From Pseudomonadota bacterium (GTDB lineage: Bacteria; Pseudomonadota; Alphaproteobacteria; Rhizobiales; Pleomorphomonadaceae): a DNA stretch of 36,436 bases. Positions 3,744 through 18,280 of the stretch are shown piece after piece. The notes beneath the pieces are model-generated. The model saw only the letters and a list, made by a program, of their open reading frames with translations. It searched no databases and had not been told where the DNA came from. The position numbers and the translations under genes are program-made. The stretch lies in assembly GCA_018262575.1 (NCBI GenBank), contig JAGSYU010000075.1, positions 1 through 36,436 on the forward strand, written 5' to 3'. Numbering within the stretch: the first letter of the stretch is position 1; each line of letters starts with the position of its first letter.

Positions 3744-4190
3744 ATGACCGATGAATCCACTCCGCTCTCCTTAGAGGAAGCTTGCGCGGCGCGCGGCATG
3801 CGCATGACCGAGCAGCGGCGAATCATCGCCCGCGTCTTGGAACAGGCGGTCGATCATCCCGACGTCGAGGAGGTCTACCGCCGCGCCTCGGCGATCGACA
3901 GCAACATTTCGATCTCCACCGTCTATCGCACCGTCAAGCTGTTTGACGACGCCGGCATGATCGCCCGGCTCGACTTCCGCGATGGTCGCTCGCGCTATGA
4001 GCCGCTGCCCGACGAGCACCACGACCACCTGATCGACTTCCGCACCGGCGCCGTCGTCGAATTCCACAGCGACGAGATCGAAGCGCTGCAGCGCGAGGTC
4101 GCCCGCAAGCTGGGCTACAAGCTGATCGACCACCGGCTCGAGCTCTACGGCGTGCCGCTCAGCGACGCCGACAAGGAGGACAAGGCGTGA
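3744..4190 (+). CDS. fur: Fur/Mur-family metal-responsive regulator
   Basis: A 148-residue Fur-superfamily regulator. The N-terminal winged helix (about 10-85) has RMTEQRRIIARVL, HPDVEEVYRRA and ISISTVYRTVKLFDDAGM. The C-terminal dimerisation domain has the metal-binding EHHDHLI motif. The CxxC pair that binds structural zinc in enterobacterial Fur is replaced (DFRTG after HHDHLI), and the Cys-containing tail is absent. Rhizobial members of this type, called Fur or Mur, sense manganese or iron and control uptake genes; which metal applies here is not decidable. The gene lies 47 bp after rimI and overlaps plsC by four bases (GTGA). Confidence 0.9.
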   Translation: MTDESTPLSLEEACAARGMRMTEQRRIIARVLEQAVDHPDVEEVYRRASAIDSNISISTVYRTVKLFDDAGMIARLDFRDGRSRYEPLPDEHHDHLIDFRTGAVVEFHSDEIEALQREVARKLGYKLIDHRLELYGVPLSDADKEDKA

Positions 4191-12695: not shown

Positions 12696-12875
12696 AATTG
12701 GGAACGTCGATTCATTTCAAGACTCTATTCCCACGTTCTCTGGATGACTCTCTTCGTTTTGCGTCCGCACCCATCGCCCGAAAGACCTTCTCTCAAAAAA
12801 GCTTGATCCAACAATTGACAAGGAGGACTCGTATAAATCGGTATCCTTAACCGTCGACCTGACCGAATTGGCAGT

Positions 12876-12896: not shown

Positions 12897-12987
12897 CTTT
12901 CGGTAACCAATCCATGCGTGTATTGCCATGTCTCAGGTCCACGGACGGATGTGGCCCCAACCGCCCGCAGATTGCGGAGAGTCCAAG

Positions 12988-13312
12988 TTGCCGCAGTTCG
13001 AACAACACAAGGTCTCTCGCGATCTGCCCACCGTCCTCGACGCCGCCGCTATCCGCGATCTGCGCGCAGAGATCGAGCCCTTCGTTTCCAAAACCACACT
13101 CCTGACGCTGAACACCGCGGCCGTCGAATGCCTTGGCACACAGGCCGCCCAGCTTTTTGTTGCAACCGCCCGCGCGCTCGACATGAACGGCGGCCGGCTC
13201 GCGATCGTGAGTTCCACGTCCCCCCTTTCGCGAAGCCTATGCCGACCTTGGCCTTCTCGCCGACCTCGACGCCCGGAGCCCCGCAAATGCCGAGAAAGAT
13301 ACTGACGGTTGA
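12988..13312 (+). pseudogene. STAS-domain chemotaxis-associated protein, frameshifted
   Basis: The first part, from the TTG at 12988 (GGAGAG six bases upstream; an in-frame ATG at 12928 is the alternative), reads as a STAS domain: LPTVLDAAAIRDLRAEIEPF, LLTLNTAAVECLGTQAAQLF, and MNGGRLAIVSSTS. The frame breaks at a run of six C (13220-13225). One base fewer would restore PFREAYADLGLLADLDA, the expected end of a STAS domain, up to TGA at 13310-13312 inside the cheY start region. STAS proteins occupy this first position in rhizobial chemotaxis operons (the orf2 position before cheY1). As written, the product ends in an unrelated Arg/Pro-rich tail at 13305. A homopolymer sequencing error is possible. 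Confidence 0.75.
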
Positions 13313-13478
13313 CGATTCCAGGTCCCTGCGAGACATGGCCTTCTGTACGCTGAAGGGGGCTGGGTTCGAGGCCTTGGAAGCCAAGGACGGGCCAAAGGCG
13401 CTCGGCGGTCTCGCCACCATCCGCGTCGATCTGACCAGCACCGACGGAGCGTCACGGCCGATTGCCGTCAACGCCTGA
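13287..13478 (+). pseudogene. cheY: Truncated CheY response regulator fused to an unrelated tail
   Basis: The open frame encodes only 63 residues. The first 45-50 match the CheY start: MPRKILTVDDSRSLRDMAF, with the paired acidic residues of the phosphorylation pocket, then a KGAGFEALEAKDG helix-strand. At the point where the phospho-acceptor strand should follow (after IRVDL), the sequence switches to TSTDGASRPIAVNA and stops. The acceptor Asp, the Thr/Ser and Lys switch residues and the C-terminal half are missing. In related operons cheA lies between cheY and cheW, so the tail may be the end of cheA left by a large deletion; that origin is inferred. GGAG at 13275-13278 serves the start. Confidence 0.8.
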
Positions 13479-13496
13479 CCTCACGGAGCTCAGTCC

Positions 13497-13994
13497 ATGA
13501 CAGAGCTGCAAGACCCTCTCAGCACTGGCCCGGACGCCGCAGCGCAGGCGCGGCAGTTCCTGTCCTTCCGTGCCGGCGACGATGAGTTCGCCATAGACAT
13601 TCTGGCGATCCGCGAAATCCAGGACTGGACCGAAACACCCATCCCGCCGAACCAGCAGGACGACATGCTCGGCGTGCTCAACCTCAGAGGCACCATCGTG
13701 CCGATCTTCGACCTGCGCTGCCGTTTCGACCTCGGGTTCACCACTGCGACGCGCAGCCACGTGGTGGTCATCGTGGCGATCGGTGGCCACCTCCTTGGCC
13801 TTCTGGTCGATGCCGTTTCCGACATCCTGACCATCAACGCCGCCGATATCAGGCCAGTGCCTGACATCGACCCGCCGATCGACAACGCCTTCCTCGCCGG
13901 CATCATCCCCGTCGGCGACGGCATGATGGCCCTCCTCAGCCTCGAAAATCTCTTTGCCAATCATGGCCCGGTGACCACCGCCGTCGCCGCCTGA
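13497..13994 (+). CDS. cheW: CheW, chemotaxis coupling protein
   Basis: A 165-residue SH3-like adaptor that links receptors to the CheA kinase. It shows the full CheW pattern: QFLSFRAGDDEFAIDILAIREI, the LGVLNLRGTIVPIFDLRCRF core (about 61-80), VVVIVAIGGHLLGLLVDAVSDIL, and a last strand around MALLSLENLF. The start is ATG 13497 with CGGAG upstream. It is intact and of normal size although its usual partner cheA is absent from the locus. It could still work with a CheA encoded elsewhere. Confidence 0.92.
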   Translation: MTELQDPLSTGPDAAAQARQFLSFRAGDDEFAIDILAIREIQDWTETPIPPNQQDDMLGVLNLRGTIVPIFDLRCRFDLGFTTATRSHVVVIVAIGGHLLGLLVDAVSDILTINAADIRPVPDIDPPIDNAFLAGIIPVGDGMMALLSLENLFANHGPVTTAVAA

Positions 13995-14017
13995 CTGCCT
14001 CTTCCGGAACTGATGTC

Positions 14018-14162
14018 ATGTCACCCACCTCGCTGGAGCTTCACACAAAGATCAATCTGATCGTCGCGCTGATGAGCCTGCCGATCGTCATCCTCGGCTG
14101 GATCTACGTCGGCAAGAGCGAGGAGGGCGTGGCCCACAAAGAGGTCTACGGCATCGCCCAAG
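14018..14162 (+). pseudogene. N-terminal fragment of a methyl-accepting chemotaxis receptor
   Basis: Starting at ATG 14018, about 48 residues look like a receptor N-terminus. There is a short polar start (MSPTSLELHTK), a hydrophobic membrane helix (about 12-29, INLIVALMSLPIVILGWIYV), then a polar segment KSEEGVAHKEVYGIA. No periplasmic, HAMP or signalling domain follows. The sequence passes directly into the C-terminal part of cheR, so the rest of the receptor has been deleted. The open frame runs on nonsensically to 14242. Identity as a receptor is inferred from the membrane helix and context. Confidence 0.55.
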
Positions 14163-14390
14163 CAACTCAACCTGTTCGACACTTGACCGATGAAGGGGCC
14201 GTGCGACGCCATGTTCTGCCGCACCGTTATTATCTGCTTTGACACACCCACGAGGCCCCGTCTGGTGCAGCGCTTCTGCCACCTCCTGGCACCCGGCGGC
14301 TGGCTCCATATCGGCCATTTTGAGACCATTTTTGACCAGAAGACGGCCTTCCGCCTGCGCGGTCCGACCATCTACCAGAAGGAAAGCTGA
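14163..14390 (+). pseudogene. cheR: C-terminal fragment of CheR methyltransferase
   Basis: Only the last 75 codons or so of cheR remain. QLNLFDT, then TGA at 14184-14186 where CheR proteins usually have a Trp codon, then PMKGPCDAMFCRTVIICFD, TRPRLVQRFCHLLAPGGWL, HIGHFETIF and FRLRGPTIYQK. This is the C-terminal SAM-dependent methyltransferase core; the N-terminal helical domain and SAM-binding loop are lost. CheR normally methylates receptor glutamates and opposes CheB. The fragment is open from ATG 14190 to the TGA at 14388, and cheD starts three bases later. Confidence 0.85.
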
Positions 14391-14393
14391 ACA

Positions 14394-15038
14394 ATGTCAT
14401 GCGCTGGTCAACCAAGACCGCCCGAGCCGCCCGGTGGAGAAGCCGGCCCTTGCCGGCAGGCCGCACCGCGCACCTACGGCTGGCGGCGCGGAATGAAGGC
14501 GGTGCGCGTACTGCCGGGCGAGGCCTATGTGACGGCGCGATCCAGCGAGATGATCATCACCGTCCTCGGCTCCTGCGTTGCCGCCTGTGTTCGCAACCCG
14601 GCGACCGGCTTCGGAGGCCTCAATCACTTCATGCTGCCAGAGAGCGACTCCGGCTTCTGGAATGGCGCCAGCGCCGCCTTGCGCTATGGCAACTACGCCA
14701 TGGAAGTGCTGATCAACGAGGTCCTGAAATCCGGCTGCCGGCGTCAGGATCTTGAGATCAAGCTGTTCGGCGGCGCCGACCTCACGGACGGACCGACGCT
14801 GATCGGCTCGTCCAACGTTTCCTTCGTACTCGATTATCTCCGGACCGAAGACCTCGCGATCGCCTCCACCGACCTCGGCGGGTCCTATGGTCGCCGCATT
14901 CACTACCATCCCTCGACCGGCGTCGTGCACCGGCTGCTGCTCGGCACCGCCGTCAACCCCGCCTTCATCGAGGAAGAGCATAGTTTCAAGAACCGGCTCA
15001 CCCGAACGAAAATCAAGGGCGAAGTCGATCTTTTCTGA
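14394..15038 (+). CDS. cheD: CheD, receptor glutamine deamidase
   Basis: A 214-residue protein that deamidates specific glutamines of chemoreceptors. The thiol-hydrolase motifs are present: Cys in ITVLGSCVAACVRNP, His in GGLNHFMLPES, and an RYGNYAMEVLINEVLKSG helix. They are followed by LEIKLFGGAD and a C-terminal DLGGSYGRRIHYHPSTGVVHR. ATG 14394 has AAGGAAAG upstream and gives about 33 poorly conserved residues before MKAVRVLPGEAYVT. It lies directly behind the cheR fragment and nine bases before cheB. The gene looks intact. Confidence 0.92.
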   Translation: MSCAGQPRPPEPPGGEAGPCRQAAPRTYGWRRGMKAVRVLPGEAYVTARSSEMIITVLGSCVAACVRNPATGFGGLNHFMLPESDSGFWNGASAALRYGNYAMEVLINEVLKSGCRRQDLEIKLFGGADLTDGPTLIGSSNVSFVLDYLRTEDLAIASTDLGGSYGRRIHYHPSTGVVHRLLLGTAVNPAFIEEEHSFKNRLTRTKIKGEVDLF

Positions 15039-15047
15039 GGGACACTC

Positions 15048-16121
15048 ATGTCTGCACGCCCCATCCGCGTCCTCATCGTCGATGACAGCGCCCCGATGCG
15101 CGACATGCTCACCGGGATCCTCTCCCACGCCCCGGGCATCGAGGTCGTGGGCACCGCCGCCGATCCGTTTGCCGCGCATGAGGCGATCAAGCGTCTCAAT
15201 CCGGACGTGTTGACGCTCGACGTCGAGATGCCCGGCATGAACGGCATCTCCTTTCTGGAAAAGCTGATGGCCCTGAGACCGATGCCGGTGGTCATGGTGT
15301 CGACGCTGACCCAGGCCGGCGCGTTCACGACTCTCCGCGCCCTCGAGGTCGGCGCCGTCGAGGTCGTAGCCAGGCCCGGGCGGGCCTCCGACCTCGAGAA
15401 GATCGCCGCCGAGTTGATCGACAAGATCAAGATCGCCGCCACCGCCAACGTCGGCGCCCGCCGTGTCGTGGCGGAGGGGCCGCCAGCCCGCCTTGCCGCT
15501 CTGCCGCCGCCACTCGGCTGCTCACGCACCGGTACGGTGATCGGCATCGGCGCCTCGACCGGCGGTGTCGAAGCGATCCGCGCCGTGCTCACCGGCCTTG
15601 CCGCCGACCTGCCCCCGATCCTGATCGTCCAGCATATGCCAGGCCAGTTCACCGGCTCGTTCGCCAGCCGGCTCGACAGCCTCTCAGCTCTCCGCGTCAA
15701 GGAGGGCGAGGATGGCGAGGTCCTGCGGCCCGGCACCGCCTACTTGGCGCCGGGTGGTCGGCAGTTCGAACTCGGTCATGTCGGCCCCAACCTCGTCTGC
15801 CGCCTCGGCGGCGAGGAGCGTATCTCCGGTCACGCCCCGTCGGTTGACGTGCTGTTCCGCTCGATGGCCCGTGTCTGCCCGATCAATAGCCTTGGCATCA
15901 TTCTGACCGGCATGGGACGTGACGGCGCCGCTGGCCTTCTCGACATCCGACTCGGAGGAGGCCGCACCCTCGGCCAGAACGAGGCAACGTCAGTGGTCTA
16001 CGGCATGCCGCGCGCCGCCTTCGAGATCGGCGCGGTAGAACGACAGCTGCCGATTCACGGCTTTACCTCCTACCTGAATGCGATCTTTTCACCCGAGGCG
16101 ACCGAGACGGCGCATACCTGA
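15048..16121 (+). CDS. cheB: CheB, receptor methylesterase
   Basis: A 357-residue protein with an N-terminal receiver domain (about 6-120) and a C-terminal methylesterase domain (about 165-350). The receiver has IRVLIVDDSAPMRDML and phospho-acceptor D58 in LTLDVEMPGMNG. The catalytic residues are present: Ser about 169 in GIGASTGGVEAIR, His about 196 in VQHMPGQFT, and Asp about 292 in TGMGRDGAAG. One oddity is that the conserved Lys of the receiver switch (usually KP) is Arg here (VEVVARPG, about 109). This may alter phospho-signalling. It is the last gene of the chemotaxis remnant and convergent with the carbonic anhydrase-like gene. Confidence 0.93.
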   Translation: MSARPIRVLIVDDSAPMRDMLTGILSHAPGIEVVGTAADPFAAHEAIKRLNPDVLTLDVEMPGMNGISFLEKLMALRPMPVVMVSTLTQAGAFTTLRALEVGAVEVVARPGRASDLEKIAAELIDKIKIAATANVGARRVVAEGPPARLAALPPPLGCSRTGTVIGIGASTGGVEAIRAVLTGLAADLPPILIVQHMPGQFTGSFASRLDSLSALRVKEGEDGEVLRPGTAYLAPGGRQFELGHVGPNLVCRLGGEERISGHAPSVDVLFRSMARVCPINSLGIILTGMGRDGAAGLLDIRLGGGRTLGQNEATSVVYGMPRAAFEIGAVERQLPIHGFTSYLNAIFSPEATETAHT

Positions 16122-16663: not shown

Positions 16664-16919
16664 GGCAGGGTCTCGCGAGCGGGAAAGGGCCGGACGGCCG
16701 GTCGGAGGTTCTTTGTAAGGCTCCGCCGTCAGCGATCAAGACGGCAGGAGCGATGGGTCGGCAGCTAATCGTTCCAGCATCTGCAAGACCCGCGTCTCGG
16801 ATCATCGCGTGAATTTGTTGGAAAACCGCCTTTCGCTGCTCCCCAAAATGCACTAGATGCCGTTATCTTTGCCAGGGCGGTCTGCATTGGCCGTTCCCCA
16901 CAAGGGAAAGCGAGCGACG

Positions 16920-18280
16920 GTGACGGATAAGAAGTCTGTCTTCATCAAGACTTACGGCTGCCAGATGAATGTCTACGACAGCGACCGCATGTCGGACACG
17001 CTGGCGCCACTCGGATATGCCGCCGCCGACAGTCCCGAAAATGCCGACCTCATCATCCTCAACACCTGCCACATCCGCGAGAAGGCCGCCGAGAAGGTTT
17101 ATTCCGAACTCGGACGCCTGCGTGTCCTGAAGGCGCATCGAGCCGCCGAGGGCCACGAGACGCTGATCGCGGTGGCCGGCTGCGTTGCCCAGGCGGAGGG
17201 CGAGGAGATCATCGCCCGTGCACCGGTCGTCGACATGGTGTTCGGACCGCAGACCTACCACCGCCTGCCGGAGCTGATCGCGCGGGTGCGCTCGGGTGAG
17301 CGGCCGGCGGCCACCGAAGGCAAGGCGCCGGCCCGGCCGAAGGTGGTGGAAACCGAATTTCCCTCCGAAGACAAGTTCGATTACCTCGCCGCGCCGACCG
17401 AGACGGCGGTACGCTCGCGCGGGGTGACCGCCTTCCTCACCGTGCAGGAAGGCTGCGACAAGTTCTGCACCTTCTGCGTCGTGCCCTACACGCGCGGCTC
17501 GGAAGCCTCGCGACCGGTCGAGAAGATTGTCAGAACGTCAACGCCTATCACGGCATTGACCACGCAGGCCGGACGGTTGGCCTTGCCGATCTGCTGGCCC
17601 GCCTGTCGGAGCTGCCGCGTCTTGCCCGCATCCGCTACACCACCAGCCACCCCCGTGATCTCGATGACGCGCTGATCGCCGCCCATGCCGGCAACCCCAA
17701 GCTGATGCCCTATCTGCACCTGCCCGTGCAGTCGGGTTCGGACCGTATCCTCGCGGCGATGAACCGCCGCCACACCGCCACCGAATACGTTGCCCTCGTC
17801 GACCGCATTCGAGCGGCGCGACCGGACATGGCGATCTCCGGCGACTTCATCGTCGGCTTTCCCGGCGAGACCGACGAAGACTTCGCCGCGACCATGGATA
17901 TCCTCCGCGCCGTCGACTACGCCGCCTGCTTCTCGTTCAAATATTCGCCGCGCCCCGGCACGCCGGCAGCCGCGCTCCCCGATCAGGTGCCGGAAGCAGT
18001 GAAGGGCGAGCGGCTGCAGCACCTGCAGGCCCAGATCGACTTGCAGCAAAAAGCTTTCGCCGAGCGCCTCGTCGGCCGCACCCTGCCAGTGCTGTTCGAC
18101 AAGCCCGGCCGCCTTCCTGGCCAGATTGTCGGGCGCTCGCCCTATCTGCAGCCGGTGGTCGTCATGGCACCGTCGTCACTGATCGGCCAAATCGCCGAGG
18201 TGACCATCGAGGCGATTGCCAACTACAGCCTGATCGGCCGGCTCGAAGGCGAGCCTGTGCCGGCCCGACGGTCGGCATGA
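16920..18280 (+). pseudogene. miaB: miaB (tRNA methylthiotransferase), out-of-frame internal deletion
   Basis: MiaB is a radical-SAM enzyme that adds a methylthio group to i6A37 of tRNAs. The 5' part (16920-17531) has the first iron-sulfur motifs ([31 protein letters not shown]) and the radical-SAM CDKFCTFC. After SRPVEKIV the frame breaks. [20 protein letters not shown] and the rest of MiaB ([37 protein letters not shown]-terminal TRAM-like domain) continue in another frame from 17531 to the TGA at 18278. By comparison with known MiaB, about 18 residues (the strand before LLGQNV) are gone, roughly 55 bp. As written the product would end at 17675. The start is GTG 16920; ATG 16857 is an alternative. 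Confidence 0.88.

Follow-up and report, generated by a model that had tools for sequence, protein, structure and literature searches.

A broken chemosensory operon in a Pleomorphomonas-like bacterium in which cheB, and perhaps cheD, appear to be kept by selection

We describe the remains of a chemotaxis (che) operon at positions 12928..16121 of a 36,436-nucleotide stretch of DNA, hereafter the window, which is contig C3 in the draft genome of a Pleomorphomonas-like soil species (295 contigs, 86 percent complete, 4 percent contamination). The features listed below for the operon and its upstream region lie on the plus strand. The operon carries two large deletions and smaller lesions; it is whole in relatives, other che genes are present elsewhere in the draft, and the constraint on cheB contrasts with that on the rest of the operon. 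On balance we favour the reading that one of three chemosensory operons has decayed and that cheB, and probably cheD, have been retained by selection for receptors encoded elsewhere. The event would be a fairly ordinary instance of a familiar kind of reductive evolution, in which the lost and the kept genes stand clearly apart.

The ancestral state is apparent from relatives, all of which belong to species other than that of the window. Regions from 11 of the 15 relatives with a CheD match were analysed (G017 (L153), G008 (L157), G018 and G022 were left out), and ten of them hold a complete STAS-cheY-cheA-cheW-mcp-cheR-cheD-cheB operon with full-length frames. This order replaces the one assumed by a first-pass annotation of the window, in which cheR, cheB and cheD followed cheW. 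The eleventh relative, G007 (L152), has all eight genes, with a cheR frame of just 191 amino acids against 282-315 elsewhere; its short cheR is followed by a gap before cheD, so that a lesion, a frameshift or an alternative start is possible. G007 was excluded from distance measurements and codon models, as were rows or taxa without a given gene. The location of the operon is shared and its flanks are collinear between the window and the relatives. In the window grpE, hrcA, polA and cobalamin genes are found upstream. Whole operons of Pleomorphomonas (L043 from P. oryzae, L044, L046, L064 and others) thus share with the window their place, flanks and the order of the remaining genes, while the window lacks cheA and most of cheY, mcp and cheR, has a frameshifted STAS gene and carries a relaxed cheW. 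CheB of the window is 82-86 percent identical to that of four Pleomorphomonas records and 80 percent identical to that of a soil metagenome-assembled genome, which puts the five closest records at 80-86 percent.

A cheS-like gene for a STAS domain (12928..13309; Pfam STAS match at E=0.00056, short of the family cut-off) is interrupted by a frameshift near 13220, from about which point similarity to relatives resumes in another frame; the alignment of relatives and a two-frame match to L046 support both the assignment and the frameshift claimed by the first-pass annotation. The cheY remnant (13287..13478, identified by alignment with relatives) consists of the first 51 codons (13287-13439) followed by the last few codons of cheA, together forming an open frame of 63 amino acids that ends at 13478; the rest of cheA is absent, so the earlier description of a shortened cheY and a missing cheA holds apart from these few codons. 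The junction of the first deletion lies at 13439..13455. Judged by blastn against L043-L046 and L064, about 2.3 kb is gone relative to L043, between 13445 and 13455, a loss that covers almost the whole of cheA and the remainder of cheY. The distance from the cheY start to the cheW start is 210 bases in the window versus 2472-2499 in all ten relatives measured. Downstream of this junction cheW (13497..13994; Pfam CheW E=2.4e-33) is open.

The second deletion joins the start of a receptor gene to the tail of cheR. The mcp remnant (14018..14137, by alignment with relatives) retains the first ~40 codons of a gene that has 987-991 codons in ten relatives and 1119 in G007. At the junction (14134..14159, located with the same blastn comparison) about 3.5 kb is gone relative to L043, between 14134 and 14152, taking nearly all of mcp and the front of cheR; from the mcp start to the cheD start there are 376 bases in the window and 3874-4043 in each of the ten relatives measured. 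The cheR remnant (14157..14390; Pfam CheR E=6e-12 and alignments) holds the last ~77 codons with one in-frame TGA; the join had been recognized in the first-pass annotation, where the cheR portion was given as a third, and it is nearer a quarter. A purine-rich stretch in the tail of this remnant, noticed by eye, is a candidate ribosome-binding site for cheD. The last two genes are open: cheD (14394..15038; Pfam CheD E=5.7e-27) and cheB (15048..16121; Pfam CheB_methylest E=2e-57, Response_reg E=5.3e-20). The cheY and mcp pieces gave no Pfam match, and together with the STAS gene they were identified through the relatives' alignment. The coordinates and contents of 12928..16121 reported earlier were thus borne out by open reading frames, Pfam and alignment, and the relatives' alignments, with distances in 10/10 of them, uphold the idea that a once-complete operon suffered two large deletions and, in addition, point lesions. 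When open reading frames of at least 100 amino acids from L043 and L046 were compared with about 10.9-26 kb of the window at scores of at least 120 bits, frame changes among sense genes were limited to STAS and miaB. In the same survey the alignment of a small gene at about 22.8-23.3 kb, whose start is ambiguous, covered 76-84 percent.

We defined as private those amino-acid differences that are found only in the window at columns invariant in relatives. The broken pieces hold 8 such changes at 41 positions (cheY), 5 at 35 (mcp) and 15 at 70 (cheR, one being the junction codon), and the open genes 17/130 (cheW), 5/130 (cheD) and 8/226 (cheB). Corresponding counts for flanking control genes are 2/296 in phoH, 1/146 in a gamma-CA-like gene, 5/125 in ybeY and 6/241 in cbiB (the names phoH, gamma-CA-like and ybeY were assigned by eye). 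G004 is included in these counts and is absent from the cheW alignment display, because in G004 the reading frame of cheW continues from upstream sequence.

Codon models that contrast the window branch with the rest of the tree gave a graded picture. Omega is raised in the broken genes (cheY 0.50 vs 0.047, p=0.00013; the cheR remnant 0.27 vs 0.017, p=0.000015; the mcp remnant 0.35 vs 0.047, p=0.015; STAS 0.77 vs 0.21, p=0.026) and also in cheW (0.133 vs 0.032, p=0.00013), which is therefore open but relaxed. It is borderline in cheD (0.143 vs 0.071, p=0.057) and identical to the background in cheB (0.056 vs 0.056, p=0.97), where the receiver and the catalytic part are each unrelaxed (p=0.56 each). 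Four flanking controls are not raised (phoH p=0.19, cbiB p=0.43, gamma-CA-like p=0.81, ybeY p=0.098), and a tree of flanking genes returned the same pattern for the six genes that were rerun. As an empirical null, each of ten relatives was taken as foreground in turn: none was significantly raised for cheW or for the cheY, cheR and mcp pieces, the high estimates coming from G006 (cheR 0.235, p=0.057; mcp at the bound, p=0.13). The earlier view of cheW, cheD and cheB as a group of surviving genes is accordingly to be divided; all three are open, and cheW is relaxed, unlike cheB. Thus an orthologous whole operon in relatives, disabling lesions and relaxation of the broken genes against flanking controls were all found, as expected of a decayed operon, and relaxation in every gene was not, since cheB is unrelaxed and cheD borderline.

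These data bear on the possibility that the entire operon is dead, with cheB and cheD merely the last to decay and their purifying signal left from the time before the deletions. We regard this as unlikely, though it is the alternative to be taken most seriously. If all genes had been released jointly, cheB should have the same neutral fraction of the branch as the others. Estimates of that fraction are 0.15-0.70 for the broken pieces, 0.10 (0.05-0.20) for cheW, 0.10 (0-0.25) for cheD and 0 for cheB, for which the grid used gives bounds of 0-0.02 (the curve for cheR is uneven at its final point). A common value is rejected for the seven genes together (p=0.00085) and likewise for cheW and cheB alone (p=0.0073). 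Omega of cheD and cheB in the window also falls inside the range of the ten relatives with whole operons, among which G004 is itself raised for both (cheD 0.148, p=0.008; cheB 0.122, p=0.0007) and G001 is low for cheB (0.017). A dead operon would agree with the behaviour of cheD, for which a single neutral fraction with cheW is possible, with changes in CheB described below, and with the absence of CheD from the relative G003. For cheD the test is permissive in the other direction too: it shares one neutral fraction with cheB (p=0.10).

Whether the retained proteins look functional was judged from their domains and residues. Both domains of CheB, the receiver and CheB_methylest, score above the Pfam cut-off, and the alignment shows the motifs GASTGG, QHMP and TGMGxDG, which we take to carry the catalytic Ser, His and Asp, to be retained. 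CheD likewise keeps its domain and the Cys and His that we assume to form its active site, so the first-pass statement on catalytic residues stands for both proteins. In the CheB receiver, Asp58 is kept and position 109 is Arg in place of the Lys found in 79/79 compared CheBs; residue 16 of CheB is Pro, found in 0/79. We presume the usual receiver roles for Asp58 and Lys109. Because of Arg109 and Pro16 the control of CheB may be damaged, and Arg109 may represent either first decay or a loosened control. A more far-reaching version seems to us doubtful: the broken operon would be a stand-alone adaptation module, in which CheB and CheD, released from the kinase and receptor of their own operon, are maintained by selection to adjust receptors of other arrays, and the CheB receiver is undergoing rewiring through the change of Lys109 to Arg, which would make CheB activity less dependent on a phosphorylating kinase.

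The two deletions would have removed the kinase, most of the response regulator, the receptor and most of the methyltransferase, after which the leftover STAS, cheY, mcp and cheR pieces and the still-open cheW would have drifted, while cheB, and probably cheD, would stay under purifying selection. CheB is a methylesterase that removes methyl groups from receptors. Loss of the kinase probably left CheB and CheD useful because both, acting on receptors and not on the kinase, would be able to work in trans: CheB as methylesterase and CheD as receptor deamidase on the receptors of other arrays. We infer that the two proteins are made and act in this way. The earlier suggestion that the surviving genes serve another array fits the unrelaxed cheB, and less firmly cheD (p=0.057). 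In favour of decay of the operon with retention for other receptors we count the presence of whole operons in relatives, the similar extents of the deletions, the constraint contrast and the status of the window's CheD as the sole match in the draft. A loose modification motif with Gln was seen in 13 of 20 sampled other receptors (of 37), a weak indication that has no chance control, and with the same proviso the operon's own receptor has Glu-Glu only in 10/11 relatives, G005 having one Gln match.

A number of results weigh against this reading of decay with retention of cheB and cheD. The count of private changes is imperfect: STAS is unremarkable at 4/44, relatives reaching 3/43, and G004, whose operon is whole, has 20/145 private changes in cheD and 21/239 in cheB. 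The borderline omega of cheD belongs here, as does the fact that its neutral fraction is indistinguishable from that of cheW (p=1). Outside the operon, the 3' piece of miaB, a gene with a lesion of its own, is raised too (p=0.014). So is cheW of the two other chemosensory clusters of this genome (p=0.013 and 0.02), and the signal in the window's cheW may therefore belong in part to the whole lineage. Arg109 at an otherwise invariant position and Pro16 of CheB count on the same side, and so does G003, which has no CheD match yet still two CheA, so that CheD is dispensable there. Finally, according to a study of Agrobacterium fabrum (PMC12654446), CheD deamidates receptor glutamines and the CheDs studied so far act on certain receptors only, which weakens the case for action in trans.

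Faults of assembly, whether a collapse or chimeric joins, could in principle have produced both deletions from an operon that is intact in the cell. The contig number, completeness and contamination of the draft, given above, speak for this possibility, and a 55-base gap in miaB lies only 1.4 kb downstream of cheB. Collapse, however, does not create the excess of changes at invariant positions in the truncated genes, the stop in cheR or the frameshift in STAS, and an assembly fault alone is therefore unlikely. Missing cheA, mcp and cheR DNA was sought on other contigs, and only distant paralogues were met among the 40 of 325 candidates that were scored; no long repeat was noticed at the junctions on inspection by eye against L043 only. 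We thus consider assembly faults an improbable explanation, and the collapsed assembly named earlier as a refutation probably does not account for everything; single junctions are less certain. We infer that the deletions are real in the DNA of the cell.

The draft has two other CheA matches, 37 matches to receptors and 8 to flagellin domains, and with a cheW-cheY-cheB-cheR set these do not support the organism-wide loss of chemotaxis considered in the first-pass annotation. The second cluster begins with a CheA-receiver hybrid, split between C282 and C228, after which comes that cheW-cheY-cheB-cheR set; neutral evolution is rejected for all six of its pieces, and only one of the six, cheW, is raised (p=0.013). 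The third is STAS-cheY-cheA-cheW-mcp on C165, a contig that ends inside mcp. Of its genes cheW is raised (p=0.02), unlike cheY and cheA, and neutrality was not rejected for cheY, cheA or cheW (statistic 3.1, 0.0 and 0.1); constraint is thus not demonstrated for this cluster, and the comparison, being uninformative, was not used. The full gene order of this cluster, seen in L213 and L216, is STAS-cheY-cheA-cheW-mcp-cheW-mcp-cheW-cheR-cheB, with cheD not seen. Contigs carrying it end less than 4 kb downstream of the CheA domain in six of eight relatives as well as in the window's genome, perhaps at the mcp-cheW repeats.

The third cluster also bears on a last alternative, that cheB and cheD are kept because they serve some non-chemotactic function or stand in for a third-cluster cheB missing from the draft. 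The cluster does end in cheR and cheB in L213 and L216, and the draft has two CheB matches, where seven of the eight relatives with a third-cluster cheA have at least three (the eighth, G003, has two). The contig C165 stops inside mcp, however, and since the contigs of six of the eight relatives break likewise, a break in the assembly is the simplest cause of the missing gene. We therefore regard replacement, or a role unconnected with chemotaxis, as very improbable. A search for the far end and flank of the third cluster gave one contig matching in part, which was uninformative. The stretch G000:C68:3120-4800 (L282) matches DNA of L216 downstream of the third cluster, with the adjoining 3 kb unmatched; by eye, that stretch of L216 encodes ADP-ribosylglycohydrolase-like and ADP-ribosyltransferase-like proteins.

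In a CheD family search of 19 genomes, that of the window included, no genome has more than one match; among the 11 same-genus relatives, ten have one and G003 has none. CheA matches number three in nine of the 11 and two in G000, G003 and G004. G003 resembles the window in that it likewise has no working operon of the window type, and differs in that it has no CheD and its two CheBs, by score and place, appear to belong to the other two clusters; in the window both cheD and cheB are still present. G003 and G004 may represent independent losses, of CheD in the former; G004 keeps an operon of the window type and has only two CheA matches.

Retention of CheB and CheD for receptors elsewhere, if correct, would point to these two enzymes being shared across arrays, and to CheA, CheY, CheR and the receptor having been private to the operon. 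Species with several clusters pose the question of how the clusters are insulated from each other, and an operon whose kinase and receptor are gone while selection still maintains its adaptation enzymes would test this in nature. Matched genomes are available within the genus: with the whole operon, with a partly decayed one (the window) and without one (G003). The parts of the literature consulted in a search on orphan cheB or cheD and cheA pseudogenes yielded no description of this case. According to PMC8429497, che1 of Bradyrhizobium diazoefficiens (class F5 without cheB) is, like the operon described here, a che cluster with an incomplete adaptation set in a multi-cluster genome. The two are opposites in that che1 retains the kinase and has no cheB, and the present operon retains cheB and has no kinase. 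The A. fabrum proteins CheS, CheD and CheT (PMC12654446) provide a case in which, as in the window, CheD and a small protein made up of a STAS domain alone go with a che cluster; A. fabrum has one cluster, and the genome studied here has three sets, with CheD in the broken one only.

Two features lie beyond the operon. About 200 bases 5' of STAS is a conserved 20-nucleotide block (12708..12727), a candidate regulatory or promoter element: 19 of its bases are identical in nine of ten relatives, with one mismatch in JP5, and the DNA around it is largely variable across the ten aligned relatives. The block has one site in the window and zero in shuffles, and the exact 19-base form occurs at this locus only among the 282 loci compared. 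Downstream of cheB, miaB (16857-18280) lacks, at 17531, the 55 bases mentioned above, which are present in all ten aligned relatives. Its omega is slightly raised, at 0.081 vs 0.023 (p=0.046) for the 5' piece, estimated from an alignment of 199 codons, and 0.162 vs 0.060 for the 3' piece, and the lesion may reflect either recent loss of a tRNA-modification gene or a fault of assembly.

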